Below, piece by piece: positions 444 through 62,515 of a stretch of DNA of 64,000 nucleotides. The position numbers and the translations under genes are program-made. The stretch comes from Vogesella indigofera. Lineage in GTDB: Bacteria > Pseudomonadota > Gammaproteobacteria > Burkholderiales > Chromobacteriaceae. Under the pieces are notes generated by a model, which saw only the letters and a program-made list of their open reading frames with translations, had not been told where the DNA came from and did not search any database. Numbering within the stretch: the stretch's first letter is position 1; each line of letters opens with the position of its first letter. The stretch lies in contig NZ_RBID01000019.1 of the NCBI RefSeq assembly GCF_003633895.1, positions 1 through 64,000 of the forward strand, in the 5' to 3' direction.

Positions 444-941
444 ATGGCTTACCCGACTCCGCAGTTTGAAGAAAAAATCTGTCCCGCCGCGCAACTGGCC
501 GCAAGGTTGGCCGCACTGCCGCGCCCGATCGTGTTTACCAATGGCTGTTTCGATATCCTGCACCGCGGCCATGTGACCTATCTGGCGCAGGCGCGCGCGC
601 TCGGCGGTAGCCTGATCGTGGGGCTGAATAGCGATGCCTCGGTGAAGCGGCAGGGCAAGGGTGACGACCGCCCAATCAACAACGAGCTGAACCGCGCTGC
701 GGTGCTGGCGGCACTGGAAAGCGTCAGCCTGGTGACCTGGTTCGACAGCGACACCCCGGCCGAGCTGATCGAATTGGTACAGCCGGATGTGCTGGTCAAG
801 GGCGGCGACTGGACGGTGGACAAGATCGTCGGCAGCGCCGAAACGCTGGCCCGTGGCGGCGAGGTGCACTCCATTCCCTTCCTGTTCGATACCTCGACCA
901 CCGCCACCATCAAGAAAATCCGGACCGTGGACGGCCAATGA
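444..941 (+). CDS. rfaE2: D-glycero-beta-D-manno-heptose 1-phosphate adenylyltransferase (RfaE2/HldC type)
   Basis: Nucleotidyltransferase that adds AMP to heptose 1-phosphate to give ADP-heptose for the lipopolysaccharide inner core; cytoplasmic. The 165-aa protein shows [13 protein letters not shown] at residues 31-43, which holds the HxGH nucleotide-binding signature, followed by the GLNSDASVK segment. It is the stand-alone second domain of E. coli HldE; the kinase domain must be encoded elsewhere, as in Neisseria. The start at 444 is chosen because AAAGGAA lies 6 nt upstream and the family alignment begins there; a longer reading frame from 330 would run through the terminator. Its stop overlaps the birA start as ATGA. 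Confidence 0.93.
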
Positions 942-1903
942 AAGACCTGGCGTTTTCGGTGTTGCGTACCCTGGCCGACGGCCGTTTCCACTCCGGTGAG
1001 GCGATGGCGCAGCAGCTCGGCTGTTCGCGCACCCTGGTGTGGCAGGCGGTGCACCATCTGGAGAACGAGTTCGGCCTGACCGTGTTCAGCGTGCGCGGCC
1101 AGGGTTACCGCCTGCCGGCGCCATTTTCGCTGCTGGAGGTGGCTGCGGTGCGCGCCGGGCTGGACGAGCGTGCGGCCAACGTGTTCACGCTGGCGCTGGC
1201 CGACGAGATCGACTCCTCCAATACCCAGCTCACCACGCGCGCTGCGCAGGGCGCGCCGCACGGCCTGGTGCTGGCGGCAGAGCGGCAGACCGCCGGTCGC
1301 GGTCGGCTGGGGCGGCGCTGGCAGATGCGGCTCGGTGCCGGGCTGACATTTTCCTTGCTGTGGCGCTTTGATCGCGGCCTGTCCGGTCTGGCCGGGCTAT
1401 CGCTGGTGGTCGGCATTGCCATCGTGCGTGCCTTGCGCGAATTCGGCGTGCCGGTGGCGCTGAAATGGCCGAACGACGTGCTGCTCGACGGCCGCAAGCT
1501 GGCCGGTATCCTGATCGAATTGTCCGGCGATGCGCTGGGACCGGCGGCGGTGGTGATCGGCATCGGCCTCAATGTGGCGGCGCCGGGCGAGGTGGACCAG
1601 CCGGTGGCCAATCTCGCCGACGCCGGCTGCAAGGTTGGCCGCAATGCGCTGCTGGCGGCGCTGCTCAACCAGCTGGCACAGGTGCTGAGCCAGTTCGACA
1701 GTGACGGTTTTGCCGCCTTCCGCGACGAGTGGCACCAGCTGGCAGCCTTCATCGGCCAGCCGGTGCGCCTCAGCTTCAGTCATGGCGAGCCGGCCGATGG
1801 TGTTGCCGTCGGTGTCGACGACAGCGGGGCGTTGCTGGTCGACAGCGCGGCCGGCCGCCGCGTGTTTCACGTCGGCGAAGTCAGCCTGCGAGCGGCGCCA
1901 TGA
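938..1903 (+). CDS. birA: Biotin--[acetyl-CoA-carboxylase] ligase / biotin operon repressor BirA
   Basis: Activates biotin to biotinyl-AMP and attaches it to the lysine of AccB-type carrier proteins; cytoplasmic. The 321-aa protein starts with a winged-helix region (about residues 1-62, [16 protein letters not shown]), so it may also act as a biotin-dependent repressor. The catalytic domain shows [11 protein letters not shown] (118-128), the biotinyl-AMP loop, and [17 protein letters not shown] from residue 176. A C-terminal SH3-like domain follows. ATGA overlaps with the gene before and with coaX after it indicate translational coupling. The repeated 13-mer lies inside the gene at 1631-1643, read as KVGR. 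Confidence 0.95.
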
Positions 1904-2616
1904 AGCTGCTGATCGATGCCGGCAACACCCGCGTCAAGTGGGCGCTGTGGGACGGCAGGCAGCTGCAGCAGCAGGGCGCGGTGGCGCACGCCGACATCGC
2001 CAGCCTGGCCGCACCGTGGGCGGCGCTGCCGCTGAGCGCGGTGCTGGCCGCCAGCGTGGCGCACGCCGCGGTGCGGCAGGCGATCGAGGCGGCTTCGCCG
2101 CTGCCGGTGCAGTGGCAGCGCGCGCAGGCGACGGCGTTGGGGGTACGCAATCACTACCGCAATGTGGCGGAGCAGGGCGCCGACCGCTGGCTGGCGGTGC
2201 TGGGCGCGCGCCAGCGCTATCCGGCTCAGGACGTGGTGATCGCCAGCGCCGGCACCGCGCTGACGGTGGAGGCGCTGACCGCCGAGGGCGACTATCTGGG
2301 CGGCCTGATCCTGCCCGGCTACCGGCTGATGCTGGCCAGCCTGGCGCAGAATACCGCCAATCTCGACCGGGCCGCCGGCCTGGCCTGCGCCTTCCCGCAG
2401 GGTACCGAGGATGCGCTGGCCTCCGGCACCATCGACGCGCTGTGCGGCGCCATCCAGCGCCTGCAGCAAAGGTTGGCCGCACACACTGGGCGGTCGCCGC
2501 TGCTGCTGCTCACCGGCGGCGATGCCGCTTTGTTGCAGCCGCACCTCCCGCCGGACACGCGGATGGTGGATAATCTCGTCATCTATGGATTAGCAAGCGT
2601 GGCAGACGGCTCATGA
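1900..2616 (+). CDS. coaX: Type III pantothenate kinase CoaX
   Basis: Phosphorylates pantothenate in the first step of coenzyme A synthesis. The 238-aa protein shows the ASKHA-fold phosphate loop DAGNTRVKWALW (6-17), the GADRWLA segment (93-99) typical of type III enzymes, and SAGTALTVE (117-125). The start overlaps the birA stop by 4 nt (ATGA). Adjacency of birA and coaX is common in beta- and gammaproteobacteria; Neisseria and Bordetella even fuse them. Here they are separate genes. Confidence 0.94.
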   Translation: MKLLIDAGNTRVKWALWDGRQLQQQGAVAHADIASLAAPWAALPLSAVLAASVAHAAVRQAIEAASPLPVQWQRAQATALGVRNHYRNVAEQGADRWLAVLGARQRYPAQDVVIASAGTALTVEALTAEGDYLGGLILPGYRLMLASLAQNTANLDRAAGLACAFPQGTEDALASGTIDALCGAIQRLQQRLAAHTGRSPLLLLTGGDAALLQPHLPPDTRMVDNLVIYGLASVADGS

Positions 2617-3492: not shown

Positions 3493-4299
3493 ATGCATCG
3501 ACAACACTTTTCCCGGCTGCTGGACCAGCGCGTCGCCACCCGCAGCCTGTACCGCGAGCCGCTGACCTGGTTGCTGGGCGGCGCGATGGCCTTCATCGCC
3601 GGCGCGCTCAATGCCGGCGGCTTTCTCGCGGTGCAGCGCTACACCTCGCACGTGTCCGGCGTGGTGTCGTCGATGGCGGACCACCTGGTGCTGGGCGACG
3701 TGTCGGCAACGTTGGCCGCACTGGCCGCGCTGCTGGCCTTCATCGCCGGCGCCGCCCACGCCGCGTGGCTGATCAACTGGGCGCGGCGGCAGCGCCTGCG
3801 CAGCGGCTACGGCGTGTCGCTGATCGAGGAGTCGCTGTTGCTGCTGCTGTTCGGCGTGTCCGGCGCCGCGCTGGCGATCGCGCCCGCGTTCTTCGCGCCG
3901 CCGATCGTGCTGCTGCTGTGCTTCATCATGGGCATGCACAACACCATCGTCACCAAGCTGTCCGGCGGCCTGCTGCGCTCCACCCACATGACCGGCATCG
4001 CCACCGACATCGGCATCGAGCTGGCTCGCGCCAGCTATTTCAACCGCGACCGCAGCAGCAAGGTGGCGCAGGTGCACGCCAACCGCGAACGGCTGCAGAT
4101 CTACCTGCTGATCCTCGGCGCCTTCTTCGTCGGCGGCCTGGTCGGTGCGCTCGGCTTCAGCTACCTCGGCTACGGCTTCAGCGTGCCGCTGGCGCTGTTC
4201 CTGTTCGTGCTCGGACTGCGCCCGCTGTGGTACGACCTGCGTCTGCGCTGGCGCTGGTGGCGCCATAGCCGCAGCGCCGTGCCGCGTGAAAAGACATGA
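3493..4299 (+). CDS. YoaK/DUF1275 family membrane protein
   Basis: 268 aa, about six hydrophobic membrane segments beginning with LLGGAMAFIAGALNAGGFLAVQRYTSHVSGVVSSMAD (about 29-64), the signature of DUF1275. The motif GMHNTIVTKLSGGLLRSTHMTGIATDIG in the middle is also typical. Members are inner-membrane proteins of unknown transport activity. No good ribosome-binding site is visible before ATG 3493, which sits just behind a terminator; the reading frame upstream is unlike the family. The repeated 13-mer occurs at 3708-3720. Confidence 0.85.
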   Translation: MHRQHFSRLLDQRVATRSLYREPLTWLLGGAMAFIAGALNAGGFLAVQRYTSHVSGVVSSMADHLVLGDVSATLAALAALLAFIAGAAHAAWLINWARRQRLRSGYGVSLIEESLLLLLFGVSGAALAIAPAFFAPPIVLLLCFIMGMHNTIVTKLSGGLLRSTHMTGIATDIGIELARASYFNRDRSSKVAQVHANRERLQIYLLILGAFFVGGLVGALGFSYLGYGFSVPLALFLFVLGLRPLWYDLRLRWRWWRHSRSAVPREKT

Positions 4300-6382: not shown

Positions 6383-6413
6383 AACAGCCCCGCGACTGCG
6401 GGGCTGTTTTTTT
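6383..6413 (+). terminator. Rho-independent terminator after phoX
   Basis: An 11-bp stem AACAGCCCCGC / GCGGGGCTGTT with a GACT loop and a run of seven Ts. A palindromic copy of the repeated 13-mer starts immediately behind it (6413). Confidence 0.93.
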
Positions 6414-6432
6414 GCGGCCAACGTTGGCCGCA
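6413..6432. repeat. Palindromic pair of the iterated 13-mer
   Basis: TGCGGCCAACGTTGGCCGCA is a perfect 20-bp palindrome made of two overlapping inverted copies of AACGTTGGCCGCA. It sits between the converging phoX and M48-like genes. Confidence 0.95.
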
Positions 6433-6485: not shown

Positions 6486-7400
6486 TCAGTCCGGCAGCGG
6501 CGGGCAACGCACGCCGTCCGGCTGGCTGCGCGCGGAGGTGTCCGGATGGCTGGCAAACCAGCTGCCGGGGCTGTTTTCGTCGTCGGTGGTCTGCGGGTGG
6601 GTGGCGGCTTCGATGCGTTGCAGGCTGTAACCCAGCAGGCAGGGTGACAGGCCGTGTGCCCGCAGGCGGGCGTAGGCAAAGCGGTCGGCTTCGCGCTCGT
6701 GGGCGCGCGAATAGTCGGCATTGGCCAGCGAGACCGGCAGCACCAGCAGCTCGTCATTGCGCTGGATCAGCGCCAGCAACTGGTCGGTGACGACGATCGT
6801 GCCGCCGGGCAGGGCAAAGGCATTGGGGCCGATGACTGCCGCGTCGCGCAGCAGCAGGCGGTAGCGGTAGCGGCTGTCGGGCAGCAGCACCTGCAGTTGT
6901 TGCTGCAGCCGCGCACGCCGCGCACGCCGTGCCTCGCCGTGGCGGCTGGGGCCGATGGCACCGCTCTGGTCCAGCCACTGCAGGGTGCTGTCCGCCAGCG
7001 CCTGCTCTACCGCTACCGGCACCAGCGGCGCCAGCGCCCCGGCGGCCAGCGGCAGCAGATGGCGATAGCCCAGCCACAGGGCTGCGATGGCCAGCAGCGC
7101 CAGCCCGGCCAGCGCGCGCCAGCTTTGTTGCAGCCAGTGGCCGCTGCGGTCGCCCCAGGACAGCCCGCCGATCAGGCGGCGGATGGCGATGCGGTCGGCC
7201 ACCTCCAGCGTGCCGCCATCCGGCAGCTGCACGGTGTCCGGCAGATCGGCGACGCCGGCTTCCAGCCGGATATCGGCCAGGCGATAACGGTATTGCCGGC
7301 CATCGCGCAGCAGCAGCAGCTCGTCGTCGATGCGGCCAACGTTGGCCGCCTGCGCCTGCGGCGTTTTGCCGTCGCGCCATAAGGCCTTGATCGTCACCAT
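6486..7400 (-). CDS. M48-family-like membrane protein lacking the HExxH zinc motif
   Basis: 304 aa. A central membrane segment (about 96-130) precedes a peptidase-like half. GPNAFALPGGTIVVTDQLLALIQRNDELL (191-219) matches the strand and helix before the zinc site of M48 proteases, and LPVSLANADYSRAHEREADRFAYARLRAHG (221-250) matches the segment containing the third zinc ligand (EREAD). The roughly 45 residues normally between them, including HExxH, are absent, joined in frame at DELLV-LPVS. Proteolysis is therefore unlikely. The gene overlaps the upstream DUF898 gene by 7 nt; M48/DUF898 pairs are common, which supports the family call. The 13-mer palindrome at 7331-7349 is inside the gene. 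Confidence 0.8.
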   Translation of the reverse strand: MVTIKALWRDGKTPQAQAANVGRIDDELLLLRDGRQYRYRLADIRLEAGVADLPDTVQLPDGGTLEVADRIAIRRLIGGLSWGDRSGHWLQQSWRALAGLALLAIAALWLGYRHLLPLAAGALAPLVPVAVEQALADSTLQWLDQSGAIGPSRHGEARRARRARLQQQLQVLLPDSRYRYRLLLRDAAVIGPNAFALPGGTIVVTDQLLALIQRNDELLVLPVSLANADYSRAHEREADRFAYARLRAHGLSPCLLGYSLQRIEAATHPQTTDDENSPGSWFASHPDTSARSQPDGVRCPPLPD

Positions 7401-9655: not shown

Positions 9656-9675
9656 TGCGGCCAACGTTGGCCGCA
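9656..9675. repeat. Palindromic pair of the iterated 13-mer
   Basis: A second exact copy of the 20-bp palindrome TGCGGCCAACGTTGGCCGCA, between the converging speB and cobS genes and just before their shared terminator. Confidence 0.95.
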
Positions 9676-9729: not shown

Positions 9730-10533
9730 TCAGTGTGGGACGAGCAACAGCAGCAACAGCAGGCTTTCGCACAGCTCGATGCCGGCGCCGAGGCAGTCGC
9801 CGGTCATGCCGCCCAGTTTCTTTTTTAGGTACGCCCACCACCACAGCCCGGCCAGCGGTGCCAGCAGCAGCGCCGGCGCCAGCCACCACGAGGCCACGGC
9901 CAGCAGAGCGGCGCTCAGCCAGAACGATGGCCAGTGCGTGCGCCAGGCAAAGCGTTCGCCGCTGCCGGCAGCGAGGCTGGGCAGCGTTGCCGACCATGCC
10001 ACGGTAAACAGCCGTGCCCACGCCGGCACCAGCAGCAGCGGTGCAAGGTTGGCCGCAAGCCCGGACAGGTAGCCCGGGTAAGCCGCAGGCGCATCCGGGA
10101 AATAAAGCGCACCTTGGGAAACCCCCGCCTCCGCCAGTGCAAACTTGACTACCAGCATCAGCAGCACCAGCTTGGCGATCAGCTGCATCGCCATGCTCAT
10201 CACGCCGAAGCTGCCCAGGTGCGGGTCTTTCAGTACTTCCAGGAAGCGCTCGCGCGAACGGTGCGCCGCGCCCTGCGCATCGGCGAGGTCGGCGAGACCG
10301 TCCAGATGCAGGCCGCCGGTGACCCACAGCCAGGCCAGCAGGCCCAGCAGCGCGCCCAGCCACGGGTCGAGCAGGCTGCCGGCCAGCACCGCCAGCCACA
10401 CCACGGCGCCGACCAGCAGCCCGACCGGCGCAAACCAGCGCGCGGCGTCGGCCAGCCACGCCGGGTCGAAGGTTTTCAGCTGCGGCGTGGGCAGGCGGGT
10501 GAGGAACTGCACGGCGAGGATCAGTGAGCGCAT
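9730..10533 (-). CDS. cobS: Adenosylcobinamide-GDP ribazoletransferase (cobalamin synthase)
   Basis: Joins adenosylcobinamide-GDP with alpha-ribazole (phosphate) to make adenosylcobalamin; integral inner-membrane enzyme. 267 aa with several membrane segments and the family motifs VQFLTRLP (8-15), WVTGGLHLDGLADLADA (about 70-86) and the acidic loop with DPHLGSFGV. It follows cobC after a 70-nt gap containing two DnaA-box-like repeats and forms the end of a cobT-cobC-cobS operon. A 13-mer copy lies at 10045-10057 within the gene. Confidence 0.93.
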   Translation of the reverse strand: MRSLILAVQFLTRLPTPQLKTFDPAWLADAARWFAPVGLLVGAVVWLAVLAGSLLDPWLGALLGLLAWLWVTGGLHLDGLADLADAQGAAHRSRERFLEVLKDPHLGSFGVMSMAMQLIAKLVLLMLVVKFALAEAGVSQGALYFPDAPAAYPGYLSGLAANLAPLLLVPAWARLFTVAWSATLPSLAAGSGERFAWRTHWPSFWLSAALLAVASWWLAPALLLAPLAGLWWWAYLKKKLGGMTGDCLGAGIELCESLLLLLLLVPH

Positions 10534-12371: not shown

Positions 12372-12373
12372 CC

Positions 12374-12562: not shown

Positions 12563-12709
12563 GTGCCCGTGCGGCCGGAAGCGTGTCAGCGACACCCCGG
12601 CGGCACCGGGTGCTGCGACGTGGCGGAATCGCGTCGTGCTGGAGCATCGCGGGGAGGCGATCCGACAGAACGTTGGCCGCAATGGTCGGTGTATGTCCTT
12701 ATTTCTCCG

Positions 12710-12742: not shown

Positions 12743-14716
12743 ATGTTCAAGAGCAAACCGTTGGCCGCGCTGGTCGCGCTGGCCTGTAGCCCGCTGGCCT
12801 TGGCCGCGACCCCCGTGACCCAGCTGGATGAAGTGGTGGTCACCGCCAGCCGCAGCCCGGACAAGGTCAGCGACCTGCCGGTCAACGTGTCCGTTATTAG
12901 TGCCGCCGACATTGCCAACAGCACCGCGCGTACGGTGCAGGACCTGTTGTCGACGCTGGCTGGTGTACACGTATTTAACAACACCGGCTCCGCCGACAGC
13001 GCGATGGTCGACCTGCGCGGCTTCGGCATGACCGGCATCAGCAACACGCTGATCCTGATCGACGGCGTCAAGCAAAACACCAATGATCTGCTCGCGCCGA
13101 ACCTGGGTGTGGTGCCGCTGAGCGAGATCGAGCGCATTGAGGTGGTACGCGGCAGTGGCGCGGTGGCCTACGGCGGCGGCGCTACCGGTGGCGTGGTCAA
13201 CATCATCACCCGCAGCGGTTTCAAGGCCGCCAACGGCGTGCAGGCCACGCTGACTGCCGGCAGCTACAACCTGAAAAAGCTGGATCTGTCCGGCCACCTC
13301 AGCGGCCAGCAGGTGGCGCTGGATGCCTTTGTGAAGTCACTGAGCAGCGACAATTACCGTGCCAACAGTGCCGAGCGCAACGACAGTGCCGGCCTGACGG
13401 CCACCGTGCGCCACCAGGGCGGCGACGTGCGCCTCTATGCGCGCAGCAGCAACCAGGATTTGCGCATGCCGGGTGCCCGTAGCGTCAACCCGGCCACCGG
13501 CGTCGACGAGTTCGGCAATGATCCGCGCGGCACCAGCAAGCCGAACGACTACATGGACATCAAGACCGATGCCTTTGGCGTGCAGGCGCGCCAGTCGCTG
13601 GGCGAAGGCATGCTGTCGCTGGACGTGGCCACGCGCGCGAAGCAGTCGCAGTCCGAGGCTTCCGGCTGGCTGGAGCAGCGCGATCTGGACGAACAGTCGG
13701 CCAGTTTGCGTTACGAGCAGGAGCTGGGTCGTCACCGGCTGGTGTTCGGCGTCGATACGCTGCAGAGCGATATGGACGTGAATAACGGCAGCCCCGCGAC
13801 GCTGTCGACCCGCATCCGCCAGCGTCATGTCGGTGGTTTTGCCGACGTGCTGCTGCGCCCGCAGGCCGGCACCGCGATCAGCATTGGTGGTCGTACGCAG
13901 CGCATCGAGGATAGCGCCGCTGATTTCACCGGCTTTGCCAACAGCTACCGCACCAACAAGGAGCTGCACGCCTGGCAGCTGGGCGCTCGTCAGGCGCTGA
14001 CCGGCCAGCTGGAGGCGTATGCCAAGGTTGGCCGCAGCTTCCGTCTGGCCAATGCCGACGAGCAGGCTTATGTGTCCTCGCCATTGCTGCCGCAGACCTC
14101 GCAGGACAAGGAAATCGGCCTGGACTGGAAGCAGGGGGGGCAGGCGCTGCGCGCGGCGTGGTTCCGTTACGACCTGACCAATGAAATCCACTTCAACAAG
14201 CTGGTCGGTTTCTTTGGCAGCAACGTCAATCTGGCGCGGACCCGTCGTCAAGGCCTGGAACTGGAAGGGCGCAGTCAGCTGGCGGCCAACCTCGAGCTGA
14301 GCGGCAACCTGACCTGGCAGCAGGCGACCTTCCGTCAGGGTGCGGCGGGTGGCGTCGAGCTGGCCGGCAACGAGGTGCCGATGGTGCCGCAGCAGCTGGC
14401 CACGCTGGGCCTGAGCTGGCTGCCGCAGGAGGCCAGCCGCATCGGCCTGCAGCTGCAGTATGTCGGTAAGCAGCGGCTGGACAACGACCAGGCGAACCAG
14501 TTCGACAAGCAGCTGGATGCCTATACCGTACTCAACGCCAAGTTCAGCCACCGCTACAGCAAGCAGCTGAGCGTGGCACTGGACGTCAACAACCTGTTTG
14601 ACCGCCACTATGCCACTTACGGTATCCGCTCCGGTGCCACCGGCAGCAGTGGTTCCTACAATCTGTACCCGGCCGCCGGCCGCAACGTGCAGGCTTCGCT
14701 GACGGTCAACTACTAA
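12743..14716 (+). CDS. TonB-dependent outer-membrane receptor under B12 riboswitch control
   Basis: 657 aa. Signal peptide 1-22 (MFKSKPLAALVALACSPLALA), a TonB-box-like DEVVVTASRS (29-38), a plug domain (VRGSGAVAYGGGATGGVVNIITRSG) and a 22-stranded barrel ending in a C-terminal aromatic residue (SLTVNY). Takes up a corrinoid or a related ligand using TonB energy; the riboswitch is the main reason to tie it to cobalamin. It is distinct in sequence from the second receptor, so it may accept another corrinoid or cobinamide. The start is fixed by GGAG at 12730 and the signal peptide. 13-mer copy at 14024-14036. Confidence 0.88.
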   Translation: MFKSKPLAALVALACSPLALAATPVTQLDEVVVTASRSPDKVSDLPVNVSVISAADIANSTARTVQDLLSTLAGVHVFNNTGSADSAMVDLRGFGMTGISNTLILIDGVKQNTNDLLAPNLGVVPLSEIERIEVVRGSGAVAYGGGATGGVVNIITRSGFKAANGVQATLTAGSYNLKKLDLSGHLSGQQVALDAFVKSLSSDNYRANSAERNDSAGLTATVRHQGGDVRLYARSSNQDLRMPGARSVNPATGVDEFGNDPRGTSKPNDYMDIKTDAFGVQARQSLGEGMLSLDVATRAKQSQSEASGWLEQRDLDEQSASLRYEQELGRHRLVFGVDTLQSDMDVNNGSPATLSTRIRQRHVGGFADVLLRPQAGTAISIGGRTQRIEDSAADFTGFANSYRTNKELHAWQLGARQALTGQLEAYAKVGRSFRLANADEQAYVSSPLLPQTSQDKEIGLDWKQGGQALRAAWFRYDLTNEIHFNKLVGFFGSNVNLARTRRQGLELEGRSQLAANLELSGNLTWQQATFRQGAAGGVELAGNEVPMVPQQLATLGLSWLPQEASRIGLQLQYVGKQRLDNDQANQFDKQLDAYTVLNAKFSHRYSKQLSVALDVNNLFDRHYATYGIRSGATGSSGSYNLYPAAGRNVQASLTVNY

Positions 14717-14863: not shown

Positions 14864-14867
14864 CCCG

Positions 14868-17121: not shown

Positions 17122-17655
17122 ATGACCACGCATCTGATCACCGGCGGCGCCCGCAGCGGCAAGAGCCGTTATGCCGAGCAGCTGGCGCTGGCCCACGACG
17201 GGCCGGTGCTGTACGTCGCCACCGCCGAGCGGCGCGACGACGACAGCTTTGCCGCGCGCATTGCGCATCATCGCGAACGCCGTCCGGCAGCCTGGGGGCT
17301 GCACGAGGCCGGGCCGGGGCTGGCGGCGGTGATCGCGGCAGAGGGGGCGGCCGGCAGCCTGCTGCTGGTCGACTGTCTCGGCATGTGGCTGATGCGCTTT
17401 TTCGACGCCGACGGCCAGTTCCAGGTCGATGCCTGGCAGCGCGAACGCGCCGCGCTGCTGGATGCCTTGGCCGCGACACCGGCCGCGGTGCTGCTGGTCA
17501 GCAACGAGATCGGCTGGGGCGTGGTGCCGCTCGGCGCCGAGACCCGCCACTTCGTCGACGAGCTGGGGCGGCTGAACCAGGATATCGCCGCGCTGTGCCG
17601 GCGGGTGACGCTGGTGGCGTGCGGCCAACCTTTGTCGCTGAAGGCGCCGGCGTGA
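17122..17655 (+). CDS. cobU: Adenosylcobinamide kinase / adenosylcobinamide-phosphate guanylyltransferase
   Basis: Phosphorylates adenosylcobinamide and then attaches GMP, giving the substrate of CobS. 177 aa, normal for CobU/CobP. P-loop GGARSGKS at 8-15, VATAERRDDD, the catalytic-histidine region RIAHHRERRP, and VSNEIGWGVVP near residue 130. A Shine-Dalgarno AGGAGCGAG precedes ATG 17122. The stop overlaps the GTG start of btuF. A copy of the repeated 13-mer (minus orientation) spans 17620-17632. Confidence 0.95.
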   Translation: MTTHLITGGARSGKSRYAEQLALAHDGPVLYVATAERRDDDSFAARIAHHRERRPAAWGLHEAGPGLAAVIAAEGAAGSLLLVDCLGMWLMRFFDADGQFQVDAWQRERAALLDALAATPAAVLLVSNEIGWGVVPLGAETRHFVDELGRLNQDIAALCRRVTLVACGQPLSLKAPA

Positions 17656-18518
17656 GGCTGGCGGCCTGCGCGCTGCTTGCCGCTTGGGCGCTGCCGGCCG
17701 CCGCGCAGCTGTCGGTGACCGACGGGCTGGGGCAGACGGTGACGCTGGCGGTGCCGGCGCGGCGCATCGTGGTGCTGGTGCCGCACGCGGTGGAAACGCT
17801 GTACGCGATCGGCGCCGCGGCGCAGATCGTGGCGGTGGTCGAGCACAGCGACCAGCCGCCGGCCGCCAGGCAGCTGCCGCGCGTCGGCAGTTACAGCGGC
17901 ATCAGCCTGGAGGCCATCCTGCGGCTGCGTCCCGAGCTGGTGGTGGCATGGCGCGACGGCGGCCATCCGCGCGAGCTGGCGCGGCTGCGCGCGCTGGGCA
18001 TTCCGCTGTATGTCAGTGCGCCGCAGGACGTGGCCGGTATCGCCCGCGAGATGCGCGCGCTGGGCACCCTCAGCGGCCAGCAGCGCGGTGCGGCGCAACA
18101 GGCGGCGCGCTTCGAGCAGCAATTTGCCAGCCTGCGGCAGCGCTACGCGTCGGCGCGGCCGGTGGCGACCTTTGTGCAGGTCGGTGACACGCCCTTGTTC
18201 AGCGTCAGCCGCCTCAGCTTTGTTGATAGCCTGGTGCGGTTGTGCGGTGGCCGCAACGTGTTTGCCGATGCCGCGGTGCCGGCGCCGCAGGTCAGCGTCG
18301 AGGCGGTGCTGGCGCGCCGGCCGCAGCTGATCCTGGCGTTCGAGGAACGGCAGCTGGCGTACTGGCAACGTTGGCCGCAACTGCCGGCGGTGGCGCTGGG
18401 CAACCTGTCGCTGCTGGCCGAGGACAGCATCAGCCGTCCCGGCCCGCGGCTGGCCGACGGCGCCCGCCAGCTGTGCCGCCAGATCGACGCCGCGCGGCAG
18501 CGTTTGCCGGCGGGCTGA
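17652..18518 (+). CDS. btuF: Periplasmic cobalamin-binding protein BtuF-like
   Basis: Type III substrate-binding protein (Fe/B12 family) that would deliver cobalamin to BtuCD, which is not encoded in this window. 288 aa from a GTG start overlapping the cobU stop (GTGA). Signal peptide about 1-18 (LAACALLAAWALPAAAQ), then VTDGLGQTVTLAVPARRIVVLVPHAVETLYAIGA, GSYSGISLEAILRLRPELVVAW and LCGGRNVFADA, all typical of BtuF/FhuD-like clefts. Assignment to B12 rather than iron rests on context (cobU, btuB). 13-mer copy at 18367-18379. Confidence 0.85.
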   Translation: MRLAACALLAAWALPAAAQLSVTDGLGQTVTLAVPARRIVVLVPHAVETLYAIGAAAQIVAVVEHSDQPPAARQLPRVGSYSGISLEAILRLRPELVVAWRDGGHPRELARLRALGIPLYVSAPQDVAGIAREMRALGTLSGQQRGAAQQAARFEQQFASLRQRYASARPVATFVQVGDTPLFSVSRLSFVDSLVRLCGGRNVFADAAVPAPQVSVEAVLARRPQLILAFEERQLAYWQRWPQLPAVALGNLSLLAEDSISRPGPRLADGARQLCRQIDAARQRLPAG

Positions 18519-21577: not shown

Positions 21578-24319
<2,742 letters not shown>

Positions 24320-28032: not shown

Positions 28033-28045
28033 AAGGTTGGCCGCA
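28033..28045 (+). repeat. Iterated 13-mer, intergenic single copy
   Basis: AAGGTTGGCCGCA in the rsfS-rlmH gap; an exact copy of the G-type form. Confidence 0.95.
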
Positions 28046-36918: not shown

Positions 36919-38367
36919 ATGAAACGACACTCCCGCCGTGCCCTGTTCGTCGCCAGCCTGCTCGCTGCCCTGGCCGCGCCGCCGCTGTTTGCCGCCAACG
37001 ACCTGCCCAGCCTCGGCACGGTGGCCGAGTCCGCCTTGCCGCAGGCGGAGGAAAACCGCATCGGCCGCGACATCCTGCGCTCGCTGCGCGGCGACGGCGA
37101 CGGCGACGTGATCGACGACGCCGAGGTCAACGCCTACCTCGCCGACCTCGGCGGGCGCTTGGCCGCCGGCGCGCAGCTGCCGGGAATGCGCTTCGCCTTC
37201 TTCGCCGTCAACGACCGCAGCATCAACGCCTTCGCGCTGCCCGGCGGCGTGATCGGCGTGCACAGCGGCCTGCTGCTGGCGACGCAGAGCGAGGGTGAGC
37301 TGGCCTCGGTGCTGGCGCACGAGATCGCCCACGTCAGCCAGCGCCATCTGGCGCGGATGCAGGAGGGCGAGGGCAACCGCCACCTGCTGATGCTGGCGGC
37401 GATCCTGGCCGGGGTGCTGGCGTCCAATGCCTCCAACGGCGACGTCAGCGCCGGCATGGTCAACGCCGGCGTCGGCCTCGCCGCCAGCCGCCAGCTGGCC
37501 TATTCGCGCGATTTCGAACGCGAGGCCGACCGCATCGGCATGCAGTACCTGACCGCCGCCGGTTTCGACGCGCGCAGCATGGCCGGCTTTTTCGACCGTC
37601 TGCAGCAGACCCACCGCCACAACGACAACAACGCCTTCGGCTTCCTGCGAACCCACCCGCTGACCGGCGAGCGCGTCAGCGAGGCGCAGAACCGCGCGCA
37701 GGGCTATCCGCTGCGCATGCGCGCCGACAGCAGCGATTTCCTGCTGATGCGCGAGAAGCTGCGCCTGGCCACCCTCGGCGCCGCCGAGGCCGAGCGCCAC
37801 TACCGCACCGCGCTGGCCGCCGGCCGCTTCCTGCAGCCGGGCGCCACCTATTACGGCCTCGCGCGCGCGCTGCTGCAGCTGGGCCGCTACGACGAGGCGC
37901 AGCAGGCGCTGGCCAGCGCGCAGCGGCAACTGCCGCCGCATCCTGCGCTGCTGCTGCTGGACGGCGACATCCAGCGCGCTGCGGCCAACCTTGACGGCGC
38001 GCTGGCGCGCTATCAGCAGGCGCTGCAGCAATTCCCGTCCAACGACGCGCTGTGGCTGGCGCGCATCGACACCCTGCTGCAGGCACGGCGCAGTGCCGAG
38101 GCGCGGCAGCAGATCGAGCTGGCGCTGAAGCGCGCGCCCGACAATGCCGCGCTGTGGCGGCTGGCGGCGCGCAGCTACGGCGAGGGCGACGCGCTGCGCT
38201 ACCACGCTGCGCTCGGCCACGCGTTCTATATCGAACAGGAGTTTGAATCGGCGCGCATCCAGTACCAGCTCGCCAGCCGCGCCGGCGGCGACGACTTCTA
38301 CCTGCGCTCCACCGTCGAGGCGCGTTTGCGCGAAATCGACAGCCAGCATCCGGCCAAGCCGCGCTGA
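36919..38367 (+). CDS. bepA: Periplasmic M48 metalloprotease with TPR repeats (BepA/YfgC-like)
   Basis: Periplasmic chaperone/protease for outer-membrane protein quality control, chiefly LptD assembly. 482 aa: signal peptide 1-25, peptidase domain with HEIAH (134-138) and EREAD (200-204) both intact, then TPR-like helices from about 300 to the end (YYGLARALLQLGRYDEAQQAL, GALARYQQALQQFPSN). The gene starts 51 nt after SulP. A 13-mer copy in minus orientation is at 37980-37992. Confidence 0.92.
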   Translation: MKRHSRRALFVASLLAALAAPPLFAANDLPSLGTVAESALPQAEENRIGRDILRSLRGDGDGDVIDDAEVNAYLADLGGRLAAGAQLPGMRFAFFAVNDRSINAFALPGGVIGVHSGLLLATQSEGELASVLAHEIAHVSQRHLARMQEGEGNRHLLMLAAILAGVLASNASNGDVSAGMVNAGVGLAASRQLAYSRDFEREADRIGMQYLTAAGFDARSMAGFFDRLQQTHRHNDNNAFGFLRTHPLTGERVSEAQNRAQGYPLRMRADSSDFLLMREKLRLATLGAAEAERHYRTALAAGRFLQPGATYYGLARALLQLGRYDEAQQALASAQRQLPPHPALLLLDGDIQRAAANLDGALARYQQALQQFPSNDALWLARIDTLLQARRSAEARQQIELALKRAPDNAALWRLAARSYGEGDALRYHAALGHAFYIEQEFESARIQYQLASRAGGDDFYLRSTVEARLREIDSQHPAKPR

Positions 38368-43276: not shown

Positions 43277-43300
43277 GAAGGTTGGCCGCGGCCAACCTTC
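43277..43300. repeat. Inverted pair of the iterated 13-mer, outward form
   Basis: A perfect 24-bp palindrome, GAAGGTTGGCCG followed by its complement CGGCCAACCTTC. Here the G-type copies meet at their GGCCGC ends, the opposite geometry to the other palindromes. It lies between aceF and lpd. Confidence 0.95.
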
Positions 43301-45177: not shown

Positions 45178-45197
45178 TGCGGCCAAGGTTGGCCGCA
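45178..45197. repeat. Inverted pair of the iterated 13-mer
   Basis: TGCGGCCAAGGTTGGCCGCA, arms inverted with one central mismatch, directly before the lpdA terminator. Confidence 0.95.
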
Positions 45198-45748: not shown

Positions 45749-45750
45749 CT

Positions 45751-49432: not shown

Positions 49433-49470
49433 AAGGTTGGCCGCAGGCGTTACCGCCTTGCGGCCAACGT
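49433..49470. repeat. Inverted pair of the iterated 13-mer, 13 nt apart
   Basis: AAGGTTGGCCGCA (49433-49445) faces a partial inverted copy TGCGGCCAACGT (49459-49470). The pair can form a long stem just after the methyltransferase stop (minus strand) and may act as its terminator region. Confidence 0.8.
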
Positions 49471-53606: not shown

Positions 53607-56600
53607 TGGCGCACACCGAAGACCTGCTGCCGTCGTCATCCCTGCGGCCTCCGTCCCTGCCATCGGCGGCGGCGCCAGAGAACCCTGAACCACCTGCGCC
53701 GCGTCGCCGCATGCGGTGGCTGCGCTGGCTGCTGTTGCTGAGCCTGCTGCTGTTGCTCGGGGTCGGTGGCGCGCTGGCGTGGTTCACCGCCACGCCGGCC
53801 GGCTTCGCCAGCCTGTGGCCGCTGCTGGAGCGCGCCAGTGGCGGCCAGCTCAAGGTTGGCCGCAGCCACGGCACGCTGTGGCGCGGCTTCGTGCTGGAAG
53901 ACCTCCGCTGGCAGACGCCGCAACAGCAGCTGGCGCTGAGCCGGCTGCAGCTGGCGTGGTCGCCGCAGCGGCTGTGGCAGCGCCAGTTGCAGATCGAACA
54001 ATTGCACCTCGGCGTGCTGCGCTATCACAGCAGCAAGCCGTCCGACGGCAGCCCGCCGCAGCTGCCGGCCCACCTGCGCCTGCCGCTGGACGTCGCCATC
54101 GACAGTCTGCGCCTGGACGCGCTGCAGCTGGGCGACGCGCCGCCGCTGCTGAACGCGCTCGACGCCGGCTACTACTACCAGCAACAGCAGCACGCGCTGG
54201 TGTTGCGCCGGCTGGACAGCCGCTGGGGGCGGATGTACGCCAGCGTGGCGCTGGGCAGCAGCGCCCCGTTCGCGCTCGGCGGGCGGCTGGAATACGACGG
54301 CCAGCTGGAAGGCGTCGCCAGCCGCGGCGTGCTGACACTGCAGCAGTCGCTGCTGGCGCCGCGTGTCAGCGGCACCGTCAGCGCGCTGGGCCTGTCGGCC
54401 CAGCTGAGCGCACGGCTGCGGCCGTTCGCGCCGCAGGCCTTGCAGCGCCTGCAGCAGCTGGACGTACGCGTCGGCGGCATCAACCCTCAGGCCTTGCAGC
54501 CGGGTTGGCCGCAGGCACGGCTGGGTCTCGCGCTGCAGCTGGCGCCGGGGGCGGGCGGCGTGCTCGACGGCGGCGTGTCGCTGATCAACTACCAGCCCGG
54601 CGCGCTCAGCGCGCAGCGGCTGCCGCTGTCGCTGCTGTACGGCCCGTTCCAGATCCGAGACGACACCCTGCTGCTGAACAATCTGGTGGCGGAGCTGGCC
54701 GAGGGCCGCGCCACCCTCAACGGCCGCGTCAGCGCCAGCGCGCTGGCACTGGCGTTGCGGCTGGACGGCATCCACAGCCAGGCGCTGCTGGCCAACTTAC
54801 CGTCGCACCGCATCGGCGGCGACATCCGCGTGTCCGGCAGCCCGCGCGCGCCGCGGCTGGCCCTGGCGCTGGCCAGCGGCAAGCTGTCGTTGCGCGGCGG
54901 ACTGGCGCTGCCGGCGCCGCAGCAGTGGCAATTGCAACAGCTGCAGCTGGGCACCGGCGCCGGCCGGCTGCTGCTGGACGGCAGGCTGGCGCTGGGCGCG
55001 GTGCCGCAGCTGGACGCGCGCGGCAAGCTGCAGGCGCTGAACCCGGCGGCGCTGTCGCCGCAGCTGCCGGTGGGCAATATCAACGGCAATTTCAGCGCCA
55101 GGGTACGGCTGGCGCAGGCGCCGCAGGGCGAGCTGCAGTTGCAGCTGACGCCGGGCACGTTGTCCGGCGCGCCCTTGTCCGGCCGGCTGCAGGCCAGCTG
55201 GCAGGCGCAGCGGCTGCGCACGCTGCAGGGCCGCCTGCAACTGGGCGGCAACAGCCTGCGTCTTGCCGGCAGCTACGGCAAACCCGGCGACCGGCTGCAG
55301 ATGCTGCTCGACGCGCCGCAGCTGGGCCTGCTCGGCCCGGCGTTCTCCGGGCGGGTGCGCGGCGAGCTGGATCTGGGCGGGGTGCCGGCGCGGCCACAGG
55401 TGCGTGCCGACCTGCAGGCCAGCAACCTGCGCCTGCCGGGGGCGCTGGCGGTGGCCAGCCTCAGCCTGCAGGGCGAGAGTGGCATCGCCGACGACAGCCC
55501 GTTCCGTATCCGCCTCGACGGCCGCACGCTGACGCTGGGCGACAGGCAGCTGGCGCGGCTGAGCCTGCAGGCCGACGGCAGCCGTCTGGCGCACCGGCTG
55601 CAGCTGAGCGCCGACGGTCGCCTGCAACAGCATGAACAGCAGCTGGCACTGCAGCTGAGCGGTGGTTTCGAGCGCGGCAGCAGCAACTGGCGCGGTACGC
55701 TGCAGCAGCTGGAGGGCAGCGGCTGGCTGCCGCTGCGCCTGCAGCAGCCGGTGGCGCTGCGCGCGGGGGCGGCCAACGTTTCGCTGGCGGCCAGCCGCTG
55801 GCAGGCGCTGGGCGCGCAGTGGCAACTGGGCGAGAGCAGCTGGCAGCGTGGCGGCGGCTGGCGCAGCGAGGGCCGGGTGCAGGGATTGGCGCTGTCGGCG
55901 CTGGCGCCGTGGTTCACGCCGCCCTTGCGCCAGACGCTGGTGTTCGACGCCGGCTGGCAATTGAACGGCGCGCAAGGTTGGCCGCAAGGCAGCGTGCAGC
56001 TGCAGCGTACGCAGGGCGATGTCTGGCTGCCGGCCCCGGCCGGCGAGCAGGCGCTGGGGCTGAGCCGGGCGACGCTGAGTGTCGGCCTCGGCGAACGCGG
56101 GCCGCTGGCGCTGGCGCTGGATAGCCGTTTTGGCAAGCTCGCCGCCGACGGCAGCGTGCTGTGGGGCAACGGCGGCAGTGTCGCCAACGCGGCGCTGACC
56201 GGCAGCGTGCGGCTGCAGGTGCCGTCGCTGGCGCTGGCACAGCCGTGGCTGAAGGCGGGCATGGAATTGTCCGGCAGCCTCGACGCCACGCTGCAGCTGG
56301 GCGGCACGCTGTCGTCGCCGACGCTGGACGGGCCGCTGCTGGGCCACGACCTGCGCTTTATCGAGCGCCGCAACGGCATCCGCCTGGAGCAGGGCCAGCT
56401 GCAGGCGCGACTGGCCGGCCAGCAGCTGCTGATCGACAGCCTGCGCTTCGGCAAGCAGGGCGAGCTGACCGGCAGCGGCCGCATCGACCTGTTCCAGCAG
56501 ACGCCGGACGTGTTGCTGCTGCTCGACTTCAAGCGCTTCGCCGCGCTGGAGCGGCCGGGGCGGCGCCTGCTGTTGTCCGGGCGCAGCCGCGTCGAGGTGC

Positions 56601-57605: not shown

Positions 57606-60600
57606 TCAGACCGCGTCGGCCGGTGCCTGCAGCCGGCACAGCGCCAGCGCGTCGTTGACCGCCAGCGGCCGGCCGGTGAGGAAGCCCTGCACCGTGTCGC
57701 AGCCCAGCGCCTGCAGCGCCGCCAGCTCGGCCTCGGTCTCCACGCCTTCGGCCAGCGACTCCATGTCCAGATTGCGCGCCAGGGTGATGATGGCGGAGAC
57801 GATGGCGGCGTTGTCGCGGTTGTGCTGCAGCTCGCTGACGAAGGAGCGGTCGATCTTCACCGTGTCCGGCGCGAAGTTCTTCAGGTAGGCAAGGCTGGAG
57901 TAGCCGGTGCCGAAATCGTCCACCGCCAGCCGCACCCCCAGCGCCTTGATGCCGGCCAGCTGCTGCCGCACCGGGCCGCTATAGTCGATCAGCGTGCCCT
58001 CGGTCACTTCCAGTTCCAGCAGCGCCGGCGGCAGGCCGCTGTCGCGCAGCACCCGCGCCACCTCGGCGCAGAAGTCGCCGTGGGTCAGCTGCCGCGCCGA
58101 GACGTTGACGGCGATGGTCAGCTGCCGGCCGTGGCGCACCCACTCCGTCGCGGTGCGGCAGGCCTGTTCCAGCACCCACAGCCCCAGCTCGGTGATCACG
58201 CCGGAATCCTCGGCCACCGGGATGAAGCGCGCCGGCGACACCAGGCTGCCGTCCGCCTGGCGCCAGCGCAGCAAGGCCTCGAAGCCGTTGAGACGGCGGC
58301 TGGCGATGTGGTACTTCGGCTGCAGCTCCAGATAGAACTGCTGCTGCGCCATCGCCAGGCGCAGCTGGTTTTCCAGCAGCAGCCGCTCGCTGACCTCGGC
58401 GGTCATGCTGGCGGTGAAGAAGCGGAACGCGTTGCGGCCGCTGGCCTTGGCCTGGTACATCGCCATGTCGGCATTCTTGAGCAGCACTTCCGGGCTGCTG
58501 CCGTCGGCCGGCGACACCGCGATGCCGATGCTGGCGCTGATCACCAGCGTGTGGCCGCGCAGGGTGAACGGCGCCTCCAGCACCTGCAGCACGCGCTCGG
58601 CGACCATGCCGGCCTGCGCGCTGCCGGACAGCTCCGGCAGGATGATGACGAACTCGTCGCCGCCGGTGCGGCCGACGGTGTCCATCTCGCGCAGCATGTG
58701 CCGGGTGCGGCTGGCGACCTGGCGCAGCAGCTCGTCGCCGGCGTCGTGGCCGAGGGTGTCGTTGACGTTCTTGAAGCGGTCGAGATCCATGAACAGCACC
58801 GCCACCGCGTGCTGCTTGCGCTCGGCCAGGTGCAGCGACTGCTGCAGGCGGTCGTGCAGCAGCAGGCGGTTGGGCAGGTTGGTGAGGAAGTCGTACTCGG
58901 CGAGGTGCTGCACCCGCGCCTCGGTGGCCTTGCGCTCGCTGATGTCGGAGAACAGCGCCACGTAGTGGCTGATGCTGCCGTCGCCATTGCGCACCTGGTT
59001 GATGGTCAGCCACTCCGGGTAGATTTCGCCGTTCTGGCGCCGGTTCCAGATCTCGCCGCTCCAGTAGCCGCGCGCGTGCAGGTGGTTCCACATGTCGCGG
59101 TAGAAGGCGGCGTCGTGGCGGCCGGAGCCCAGCAGCGCCGGGGTGTTGCCCAGCGCCTGGGCCTCGCTGTAGCCGGTGATGTCACTGAAGGCGCGGTTGA
59201 CGGCGATGATGCGGCTGTCGGCGTCGGTGATCAGGATCGCCTCCGAGCTGGCCTCGAACACCGTTGCGGCCAACCTTTGCTGCCGTTCGTGGCTGACGCG
59301 GGCGCTGATGTCGCGCGCGGTGGCGCAGCGGTAGTACTCGCCCTGGTAGCTGAGGCCGGTGAGGCTGATCTCCAGCGTCATCTCGCCGCTGCAGCAGCGC
59401 ACGCTGCGCACGTAGTGGTGCTGGCCGCCGCTGAAGCGCTCCTCGAACAGCTCCGGCATGCGGTGCTCGTTGCCGTCGCAGAAGCAGCGCTTGGCCGCCT
59501 CGTTGTGGTACACCACGCGGCCCTGCGCGTTGAGCAGCACGATGGCGTCGGCGGCGCTGTCGCTCATGTAGCGCGTCAGCTCGATCTCGCGCGCCTTGTC
59601 CTCCACCTGCCGCTGCGACGCCTGCAGCCGCTGCTGGTACTGCGCGATCAGCGCCCCCAGCCAGCGGCTGAAGTGCACCGAGAACAGCCACGCCAGGCAC
59701 ACCGCCAGCGTCAGGATCAGCAGCGTGGTCAGCACCCGGTTGCGCGTCTTCTCGCCCAGCGCCTGCGCCTGTGCGGCGCCGGACAGCGTCAGCTCGCGCT
59801 CGGGGATGATGCTGACCACCCGCCACTGCCACGACGGCACCAGCGCCACGTAGGCGCTGTAGCGCTGGCTGCCGGCGGCGGCGGGATGGCTGAAGCTGAC
59901 GAAATACTGCGACGGCGTGGCCGCCAGCTGCTGCTGCAGCGCGGCGGGCAGGGTGAAGCCGCGCTGGCCCGGCAGCTGGCGCAGGCGGCCGTGCTGGTCG
60001 ATGACGGCGAAGAAGCCGCGCTCGCCGACCGGCATCTGCGCCAGCGTCTGCAGCGCCTGCTGCTGCAGGTCTTCTTCCACGTTCAGCACGTACTCGCCGC
60101 CGCCGATCAGCCAGCCGAACGGCTCGAAGCGGCGCGAGTAGGCGATCTTTTCCGACATGAACGTCTCGCCGGGGCGATACCAGCGATAGCTGGCAAAGCC
60201 GCTGCCGGCGGGATTGTCCACCGACAGGAGCAGCTTGCGCATGATGTAGGCGCCCTGGTCGTCCTGGTTGTCGAGCAGGTTGCGGCCTTCGCGCTGCGGG
60301 CTGGTCGGCAGCAGCACGCAGTCGCCGTCGAGGGTGTCGATGAAGTAGTAGCCGCGGCCGCCGAAGTAGCGCAGCGGGCGCAGGCTCTCCACGATCTCGC
60401 GTTGCAGCGCCGCGTCGCTCAAGCGGCGGTGATGGCGGCGGTACAGGCTGTCGGCCAGCACATAGGCCTGGTCGACCTGCTCGCGCAGGCGCTGGCGCAG
60501 GATGTCCTGCGTCTGCGAGTACAGCGTCTCCAGCGAGTTGCTGGCGTGGTCGCCGTAGGCCTTGAGGAAGGTCTGGCCGCGCAGCCGCGCCTCTTCCGCC

Positions 60601-61410: not shown

Positions 61411-61439
61411 TTTACCGCCTGCGCAAAAGGCAGTACAAT
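61411..61439 (+). promoter_or_regulatory. Promoter of dusB-fis
   Basis: TTTACC (61411-61416), 17 bp, TACAAT (61434-61439), with an A/T-rich stretch upstream (61381-61408) that could act as an UP element. Confidence 0.6.
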
Positions 61440-61474
61440 GGCCGCCCTTTCGCCCTCCATGTCTTTCTTTTGCA

Positions 61475-62515
61475 ATGCAAATCGGCCCTTACACGCTCAA
61501 GAACCAGCTGATCGTTGCCCCCATGGCGGGTGTCACCGACCGGCCGTTCCGCATGCTGTGCAAGAGACTGGGCGCCGGCATGGCGGTGTCGGAGATGATC
61601 ACCGCCAACAAGGCGTTGTGGACCACCAAGAAAACCCTGCTGCGCGCCGACCACAGCGGCGAAGTCGAGCCCATCGTGGTGCAGATCGCCGGCGGCGACG
61701 CGGCGATGCTGGCCGAGGCGGCGCAGCTGAACGTGGCGCGCGGCGCGCAGATCATCGACATCAACATGGGCTGCCCGGCGAAGAAGGTGTGCAATGTCGC
61801 CGCCGGCTCTGCGCTGCTGCGCGACCTCGACAACGTTGGCCGCATCCTCGACGCGGTGGTGCGCGCGGTGGACGTGCCGGTGACGCTGAAGACCCGCACC
61901 GGCTGGAGCAGCGAGGTGAAGACCGCGCTGCAGGTGGCGAAGATGGCCGAGGAGGCCGGCATCGCCGCGCTGGCGCTGCACGGGCGCACGCGCGAGGACA
62001 TGTACCGCGGCGCCGCCGAGTACGACACCATCGCCGCGGTGAAGCAGGCGGTGGCTATCCCGGTGATCGCCAACGGCGACATCGACAGCCCGCACAAGGC
62101 GAAGCAGGTGCTGGATGCGACTGGCGCCGACGCGATCATGATCGGCCGCGCCGCACAGGGGCGGCCGTGGATCTTCCGCGAGATCCAGCATTTTCTGGAT
62201 ACCGGCGAGACGCTGCTGCCGCCGCGCATCAGCGAGATCGACGACATCATGCAGGGCCACCTCGACGAGCTGTACCGTTTTTACGGCGAATATTCCGGCT
62301 GCCGCATCGCGCGCAAGCACATCGCCTGGTACACCCGCGGCCTGCGTGGCAGCAACGAATTCCGTCAGGCGATGTACGCGCTGGAATCGACCAGCACGCA
62401 GCGCCAGGCAGTGGCACAGTATTTTGCGCAGCTTGCGGCCAGTTCCGAGCGGCTGGAGTACGTGTCCACCGGACCGCACGAGGACGAGGACGCGACAGCG
62501 TGTGCGGGCGATTAA
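61475..62515 (+). CDS. dusB: tRNA-dihydrouridine synthase B
   Basis: Reduces uridine in the tRNA D-loop (U17 in E. coli), FMN-dependent. 346 aa. APMAGVTDRPFRMLCKRLGAG, DINMGCPAKKVCNVAAGSALL (catalytic Cys in the CPxxK region), ALHGRTREDMY and IGRAAQGRPWIFREI are typical. Followed by fis, as in E. coli. 13-mer copy at 61832-61844. Confidence 0.95.
   Translation: MQIGPYTLKNQLIVAPMAGVTDRPFRMLCKRLGAGMAVSEMITANKALWTTKKTLLRADHSGEVEPIVVQIAGGDAAMLAEAAQLNVARGAQIIDINMGCPAKKVCNVAAGSALLRDLDNVGRILDAVVRAVDVPVTLKTRTGWSSEVKTALQVAKMAEEAGIAALALHGRTREDMYRGAAEYDTIAAVKQAVAIPVIANGDIDSPHKAKQVLDATGADAIMIGRAAQGRPWIFREIQHFLDTGETLLPPRISEIDDIMQGHLDELYRFYGEYSGCRIARKHIAWYTRGLRGSNEFRQAMYALESTSTQRQAVAQYFAQLAASSERLEYVSTGPHEDEDATACAGD

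Follow-up and report, generated by a model that had tools for sequence, protein, structure and literature searches.

Throughout a 64,000-nucleotide stretch of Vogesella indigofera DNA (contig NZ_RBID01000019.1, positions 1 to 64,000; hereafter the window), a short word with the core GTTGGCCGCA is repeated on both strands, and this core with its 5' extension CAA[G/C] is very probably a self-recognition word for natural transformation, similar to the neisserial DNA uptake sequence (DUS) and, like it, divided into dialects. The word is abundant across the genome and the genus, related spellings occur in sister genera, its inverted pairs are placed 3' of genes, and a homologue of the pilin ComP is encoded, as are competence genes. 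A first-pass annotation, made from the letters of the window, had named a DUS-like uptake word as its first choice, a choice supported here by the ComP homologue, by the presence of the word throughout Vogesella and by the dialects of sister genera.

Abundance, reading frames and inverted pairs

The extended form AASGTTGGCCGC was matched exactly 33 times in the window, at 28 loci of which five are inverted pairs, and 100 dinucleotide shuffles gave 0.03 matches on average and never more than 1; the 10-mer GTTGGCCGCA has 41 copies. The annotation had seen AA[G/C]GTTGGCCGC iterated across the window with a chance expectation well below one, which understated the observation, and its estimate of about 27 loci was near the actual number. 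All 21 coordinates that it gave are real, with five on the minus strand shifted by one base. It had described a 13-mer, and the repeated word is real but differently delimited: the form in this species, CAA[G/C]GTTGGCCGCAa, spans about 14 positions, and its ten central bases are the core. In a 564-kb sample (the window and further stretches of the V. indigofera genome, with genes called by our own script), the 305 copies of GTTGGCCGCA are flanked by CAA[G/C] on the 5' side and by a weak A on the 3' side. Moreover, each of the 30 single-base variants of GTTGGCCGCA was found at most 10 times in 164 kb of the genome, against 99 copies of GTTGGCCGCA itself.

Over the 3.62-Mb genome, 1527 copies of the 12-mer AA[G/C]GTTGGCCGC were counted against 1 of the reversed word, and 2057 copies of the core (1040 forward, 1017 reverse) against 9. 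Within the 564-kb sample, where the coding fraction of the sequence is 0.83, 176 copies lie inside genes, 126 between genes and 3 at gene edges. Those inside genes are spread over all six frames (43/9/42 in gene orientation, 9/6/67 in the opposite orientation), and synonymous-codon shuffles of 500 genes (40 shuffles) gave a mean of 8.55 and a maximum of 13 coding copies, by which codon bias was ruled out as the cause. A repeat with shared flanks was also rejected, the flank likeness among copies being 0.278 against 0.270 at random.

As its alternative, the annotation had named a HIP1-like palindrome or a methylation or segregation signal. Taken here as a HIP1-like motif or a mark for methylation or for the avoidance of restriction, this reading has an intracellular DNA-modifying or DNA-binding enzyme recognise the word, and self-marking would be independent of uptake. 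The genome-wide, strand- and frame-neutral abundance would fit it too, and the word contains the palindrome GGCC; however, the word is non-palindromic and strand-balanced, its symmetric sub-word TTGGCCAA shows no enrichment (7 seen against 8.2 expected), and CGGCCG is rarer than expected (785 against 1321). The constraint falls on an asymmetric word of at least 10 bases with a 5' extension, and a ComP homologue is present. Since TTGGCCAA is unenriched, this alternative is weakened and we regard it as improbable; palindrome recognition as such was ruled out by the same count.

Neighbouring copies no more than 60 bp apart number 30, of which 29 are inverted and 27 intergenic. Among copies of the AAC form (AACGTTGGCCGCA), 20 of 64 in the 564 kb sit in 10 perfect 20-bp palindromes, the sites of TGCGGCCAACGTTGGCCGCA. 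The 54 words of intergenic pairs are distributed over convergent gaps (28) and tandem gaps (26), with none in 28.6 kb of divergent gaps, so that the pairs lie 3' of genes, as expected of terminators, and may end transcription. One pair on contig C1 folds at -33.2 kcal/mol (z -8.4), and two window pairs fold more weakly (z -2.4 and -3.9). The two outcomes that the annotation had named as refuting its reading, a genome-wide count at the level expected from composition and an enrichment due entirely to one codon pair in one frame, did not occur. The counts bear out what it had said about reading in several frames under a constraint on DNA, and about both-strand use with intergenic inverted pairs.

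The placement of the pairs and the one strong hairpin would also be explained by a dispersed regulatory or terminator repeat, spread because its inverted pairs end transcription. Nevertheless, only 30 close neighbours exist among 305 copies, 176 of the 305 lie within genes, 17 single words occur in divergent gaps, and the dialects would be left unexplained, which leaves this possibility with a slim chance. The least probable candidate is a KOPS- or Chi-like motif for chromosome maintenance (segregation, repair or a nucleoid protein site), which would be spread chromosome-wide as the word is, but no clear strand polarity was seen in samples of three genomes (G-rich/C-rich strands 108/100, 83/66 and 104/113), by which replication polarity was ruled out, and 38 of 61 family genomes lack the word, which does not fit a function of the core chromosome machinery.

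Dialects and a ComP homologue in the Chromobacteriaceae

All 13 Vogesella genomes carry GTTGGCCGCA in 1871-2895 copies, against 8-58 in the other 48 genomes of the family. In sister genera, one- or two-base variants of the word are abundant. The spelling GTTGGCCGAA, with only 8-34 copies in Vogesella, is abundant in 8 of the 48 (G010 1368, G036 579, G037 2168, G038 1245, G045 1851, G046 1104, G048 893, and 183 in G047, which is 84% complete), and GTTGGCCGAG in 2 of the 48 (G034 1940, G035 1590), which also carry 77 and 78 copies of GTTGGCCGAA, respectively. These ten carriers span six genera other than Vogesella, and a main dialect is therefore found in 23 of 61 family genomes and 7 of 10 genera, with the endings CA (13), AA (8) and AG (2). 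The other 38 genomes are without any of the three spellings in comparable numbers, as seen in genera g3 (19/19), g4 (4/4), g8 (6/6) and g2 (9/10).

Several genomes depart from this pattern. G036 (Crenobacter oryzisoli) has a mixed dialect, with 165 copies of GTTGGCCGAG besides its GTTGGCCGAA, and G010 is the sole word carrier among the ten g2 genomes and has the best-scoring ComP homologue of that genus. In G040 and G043 (g8), a weak excess was detected for GTTGGCCGAG (92 and 85, reversed 21 and 17) and GTTGGCCGAA (62 and 45, reversed 13 and 11), which may be what is left of an old word in decay. In the G045 sample (L071/L072), a dense CAACAACAC-type repeat dominates the k-mer counts.

Other over-represented words were sought in word-negative genera (G022, G017, G003, G042, G033 and G030; 40-100 kb each), and none exceeded z 8.8, while the top 10-mers of three reference samples reached z 22-48 in the same test. 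The strongest word of G022, CTCGGCCAG (26 copies, 6.1 expected), we take for codon usage. In a sample of 399 genomes of the order, GTTGGCCG[AC]A (GTTGGCCGMA) reached 1265-2925 copies in eight carriers and no more than 83 in each of the 386 genomes outside the Chromobacteriaceae, a few of which had a mild excess (G288, 60 against 12 reversed; G123, 52 against 10).

Furthermore, a scan of named genomes with the ComP alignment gave 12 loci, from five Vogesella, two Pseudogulbenkiania species, one Pseudogulbenkiania metagenome bin, one Crenobacter oryzisoli and three further relatives, and agreeing locus coordinates identify g10 as Pseudogulbenkiania, G036 as Crenobacter oryzisoli and the source genus as Vogesella. 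Exactly one main spelling, and none of the other, is held by 11 of the 12 loci: L101-L108 contain 9-15 copies of GTTGGCCGCA each, L109, L110 and L112 contain 6, 7 and 4 copies of GTTGGCCGAA, and the short L111 contains neither.

Among type IV pilus parts, pilins were searched, and ten proteins of the V. indigofera genome matched the pilin-type N_methyl model, three of which were compared with solved structures. One of them, a ComP-like minor pilin of 142 aa encoded outside the window (C11:94160-94585, minus strand) and above the N_methyl cut-off, matched through its soluble domain (phmmer) the solved ComP chains 2nba (7.9e-10), presumably ComP of Neisseria subflava, and 2m3k (Minor pilin ComP; 4.4e-7). 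For the PilE-like pilin and the major pilin, searched at E 1 and 0.001, respectively, no match to a ComP chain was seen. When 29 family homologues were combined into a profile, the three solved ComP chains came out at the top (2nba 2.2e-20, 2m3k 2.8e-19, 5hz7 1e-18), and the AlphaFold2 model of the protein is pilin-like (mean pLDDT 88.4, helix 9-60, five strands). Thus, both the word in relatives and the ComP-like minor pilin to which the annotation had pointed were found. A near full-length ComP homologue and DprA are present in 13 of 13 Vogesella genomes, and ComEC was detected in all but two of the 61 family genomes (59); the two without a match, G057 and G058, are metagenome bins according to agreeing coordinates.

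Directly upstream of the comP-like gene, and overlapping it by a few bases, lies a second pilin-like gene (at locus L031, C11), whose V. indigofera copy falls short of those in four close relatives by 35 residues; its five copies have Q at +5, where pilins usually have E, and look FimT/GspH-like by eye. As for genetic access to the species, the manipulation of V. indigofera by conjugation is described in one report, as is an igiD deletion in strain OSW_575 that abolishes pigment (PMC12826045).

The cut-off of the Pfam model ComP_DUS was passed by 8 of 10 homologues tested, those of G054 (V. oryzae) and G059 failing. All 29 aligned homologues have a C-terminal cysteine pair with a loop of 8-9 residues, and two have a third cysteine beyond the helix start. 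In an alignment that left out G045, a lysine in the [FY]K stretch before WP stands in 21 of 22 rows from word carriers (G010 has T) and in 0 of 7 word-negative rows, a pattern confounded by ancestry. With regard to the word, the two Vogesella clades have the core in common. In logos from samples, some of 4 to 27 copies, the 5' A pair is strong in one clade (76-81%), whereas most genomes of the other show it weakly (40-61%), with values of 72% and 63% in G060, where only 11 copies were sampled. The identity of the ComP homologue to that of V. indigofera is 85-94% in clade A and 37-50% in clade B, and in the ComP tree the GTTGGCCGCA group falls on one side of a 100/100 branch. Since the tree largely follows taxonomy, it fits receptor-word co-evolution without proving it.

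Proposed mechanism, turnover of copies and the window

In the proposed mechanism, the ComP-like minor pilin would be displayed in the type IV pilus and bind the word on external DNA, the pilus would pull worded DNA in, and ComEC and DprA would handle it inside. Worded fragments would recombine preferentially, and consequently the word would build up on both strands where coding constraint permits, while newly arrived phage DNA would be without it. Inverted pairs would have been co-opted as transcription terminators, and as the receptor drifts the word would drift along, with dialects as the result.

Pooled over species, the word is conserved at orthologous sites with higher frequency than ordinary 10-mers, in comparisons that left out G057 and share ancestry. 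In the comparison with four close relatives, 48 of 59 aligned copies in genes and 39 of 44 between genes were unchanged, with ordinary 10-mers kept at 57-69% and 52-65%, respectively; against seven distant relatives, the corresponding values were 16 of 29 and 13 of 16, with ordinary 10-mers at 26-31% and 4-18%. In addition, when the four longest gaps between copies in a 400-kb block were inspected, three turned out to hold phage genes (ten proteins tested, one without a match). The products recognised are proteins of the tail sheath, baseplate and tail; RecT and YqaJ, next to a gap that contains an SU10-type portal; and a GPA replication protein. Since the gaps were picked for length, with 0.05 to 0.44 gaps of such lengths expected from an exponential model, this phage content is illustrative.

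Several observations weigh against an uptake word read by a ComP-like receptor. The Pfam model ComP_DUS is unspecific, the PilE-like pilin of V. indigofera scoring 70.5 bits and the candidate 46. ComP homologues also occur in word-negative genomes (7 of 29 aligned rows), so that the presence of this receptor family is by itself no predictor of the word, and the agreement between receptor and dialect is confounded with phylogeny. The four-cysteine DD region is found in 0 of 29 homologues, whose second cysteine pair is absent, and for this reason the protein is called a ComP homologue and not ComP in the strict sense. Regarding turnover, the nearest relative, G052, gives little excess (11 of 15 against 0.69 coding; 7 of 10 against 0.65 intergenic), and coding copies in G059 and G060 give none (1 of 4 each against about 0.3). 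One of the four longest gaps (C1:644941-657774, 12.8 kb) holds lon instead of phage genes, with no phage gene in the one protein tested there. Finally, a literature search on natural transformation or an uptake sequence in Vogesella returned nothing relevant by title.

The copies in the window are listed in Table 1.

Table 1. Copies of the word in the window, from exact pattern matches; coding and intergenic positions follow the gene calls of our own script.
Feature	Position	Strand	Basis and context
Uptake-word candidate AAGGTTGGCCGC	503..514	+	exact match; intergenic
Word, AAG form	1631..1642	+	exact match; coding
Word, AAG form	2469..2480	+	exact match; coding
Word, AAC form	3708..3719	+	exact match; coding
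Overlapping inverted pair, perfect 20-bp palindrome, convergent genes either side	6413..6432	.	exact match; fold z -2.4
Overlapping inverted pair, AAC form, within predicted gene	7332..7349	.	exact match
Overlapping inverted pair, perfect 20-bp palindrome, convergent genes either side	9656..9675	.	exact match
Word, AAG form	10045..10056	+	exact match; coding
Word, AAC form	12669..12680	+	exact match; intergenic
Word, AAG form	14024..14035	+	exact match; coding
Word, AAG form	17621..17632	-	exact match; coding
Word, AAC form	18367..18378	+	exact match; coding
Word, AAG form	21606..21617	-	exact match; intergenic
Word, AAG form	25204..25215	+	exact match; coding
Word, AAG form	28033..28044	+	exact match; intergenic
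Word, AAC form	28888..28899	-	exact match; coding
Overlapping inverted pair, perfect 20-bp palindrome, tandem genes either side	31893..31912	.	exact match
Word, AAG form	35416..35427	+	exact match; coding
Word, AAG form	37981..37992	-	exact match; coding
Word, AAC form	41954..41965	+	exact match; coding
Inverted pair, AAG form, two-base overlap	43278..43299	.	exact match; intergenic
Word, AAG form	45185..45196	+	exact match; intergenic
Word (49433-49444, +) with inverted GTTGGCCGCA partner, end 49468; hairpin	49433..49468	.	exact match; fold z -3.9
Word, AAG form	53852..53863	+	exact match; coding
Word, AAC form	55769..55780	-	exact match; coding
Word, AAG form	55974..55985	+	exact match; coding
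Word, AAG form	59266..59277	-	exact match; coding
Word, AAC form	61832..61843	+	exact match; coding

The window is ordinary chromosome, with genes for leucyl-tRNA ligase, pyruvate dehydrogenase and a TamB-like protein, and with RNase P RNA, 5S rRNA and two cobalamin riboswitches. The riboswitches (12366-12573 and 14858-15067) each lie 5' of a TonB-dependent receptor gene, and the receptor after the second matches vitamin B12 receptor models best, below cut-offs. Two tandem 5S rRNA matches at 1-278 (1-90, cut by the window edge, and 165-278) suggest that an rRNA operon ends where the window begins. About 2 kb following the lipoamide dehydrogenase gene (45169-47193) is without a gene predicted by our caller and without an Rfam match.

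Comparison with known systems

Uptake words spread over the whole genome have, to our knowledge, been described in few bacterial families. The uptake signal sequence of the Pasteurellaceae is a genome-wide self-recognition word for competence and follows the same principle with a different word. HIP1 of cyanobacteria is likewise abundant and dispersed, but palindromic, unlike the word described here with its unenriched symmetric part TTGGCCAA. KOPS and Chi-like motifs are polar, with a strand bias relative to replication, whereas no clear G-rich strand bias was seen here in the three genome samples. With respect to the receptor, Pasteurellaceae are described as being without a ComP homologue (PMC4906244).

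Among the titles listed by literature searches, none concerned this word or uptake words of Chromobacteriaceae, although Table S1D of PMC3630211, on over-represented 10-mers of five negative genomes, may contain the Pseudogulbenkiania word. A whole-word search for six spellings returned no paper, and the inside-word matches listed were unrelated by title. In the text available from two further papers, Chromobacterium appears only as an outgroup or in references (PMC11316581, PMC10715097).

The closest likeness is to the neisserial DUS, with which the word shares a short asymmetric form, one to three thousand copies on both strands in coding and intergenic sequence, close inverted pairs 3' of genes, lineage-specific dialects and a ComP homologue. 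The numbers are also similar: about 1900 AT-DUS 10-mers are reported for N. meningitidis (PMC3630211), and DUS have a mean spacing of about 1150 nt, with inverted pairs serving as terminators (PMC2397512). However, all eight published DUS dialects have CTG at +6 to +8 (PMC3630211), whereas all three dialects here have CCG at the aligned place, and the canonical DUS core GCCGTCTGAA is not enriched in the 564 kb (1 seen, 1.6 expected). The DD region, with two disulfides between four conserved cysteines, is the hallmark of neisserial ComP (PMC4906244), while the homologues here have one C-terminal cysteine pair. The hosts also differ, being here Chromobacteriaceae, a family of which five genomes were reported without obvious DUS (PMC3630211). 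Lutiella nitroferrum 2002, among the genomes listed there, is now named Pseudogulbenkiania ferrooxidans 2002; G046 is taken as this strain, since locus coordinates agree within a few bases, and the strain listed without DUS thus appears to carry the sister dialect GTTGGCCGAA.

The annotation had called the word unrelated to the known dialects, a statement that needs qualification. The Vogesella form and the AG-ending form match DUS at 8 of 12 positions (P = 0.09 and 0.06, respectively), whereas AGGTTGGCCGAA, the Pseudogulbenkiania-type word with its preferred 5' flank and core CCG, matches AG-mucDUS and AG-simDUS at 9 of 12 (P = 0.0115; composition shuffles, seven offsets, both strands), and therefore a relation to DUS is possible, not shown. 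The A/C change at +9 between sister dialects is the same as that by which kingDUS and king3DUS differ (PMC3630211). When the order sample was scanned with a degenerate pattern that fits both AG-type DUS and the present word, only two families stood out, the Chromobacteriaceae (G010 439, G038 513) and f44 (361-4209 copies in 10 of 11 genomes), with at most 34 copies in the remaining sampled genomes; from its words, we take f44 for Neisseriaceae. Common descent of this word and DUS is suggested, not proved, by these likenesses, of which the sequence match depends on the single dialect with P = 0.0115.

The way in which ComP recognises its word is described as unresolved (PMC12061091). Conceivably, although we would place it slightly below an even chance, the words of Neisseriaceae and Chromobacteriaceae are branches of one ancient uptake language, in which the supposedly indispensable CTG changed to CCG together with a DD-less ComP receptor. 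Such a receptor would have to contact DNA elsewhere, for which the [RK]NTD loop and the [FY]K stretch that precedes WP-x-LP are possible sites. If true, the CTG core and the DD region would belong to one branch only and not to uptake-word recognition as such, being no general requirements, and the Chromobacteriaceae would offer a natural series of receptor-word pairs.

From these sequence comparisons, the system is best described as a DUS-like uptake-word system in a family reported without one, with a changed core and a receptor homologue without the hallmark DNA-binding region. As a second family of betaproteobacteria in which dialects and receptors have diverged, the Chromobacteriaceae would provide many receptor-word pairs in environmental bacteria.

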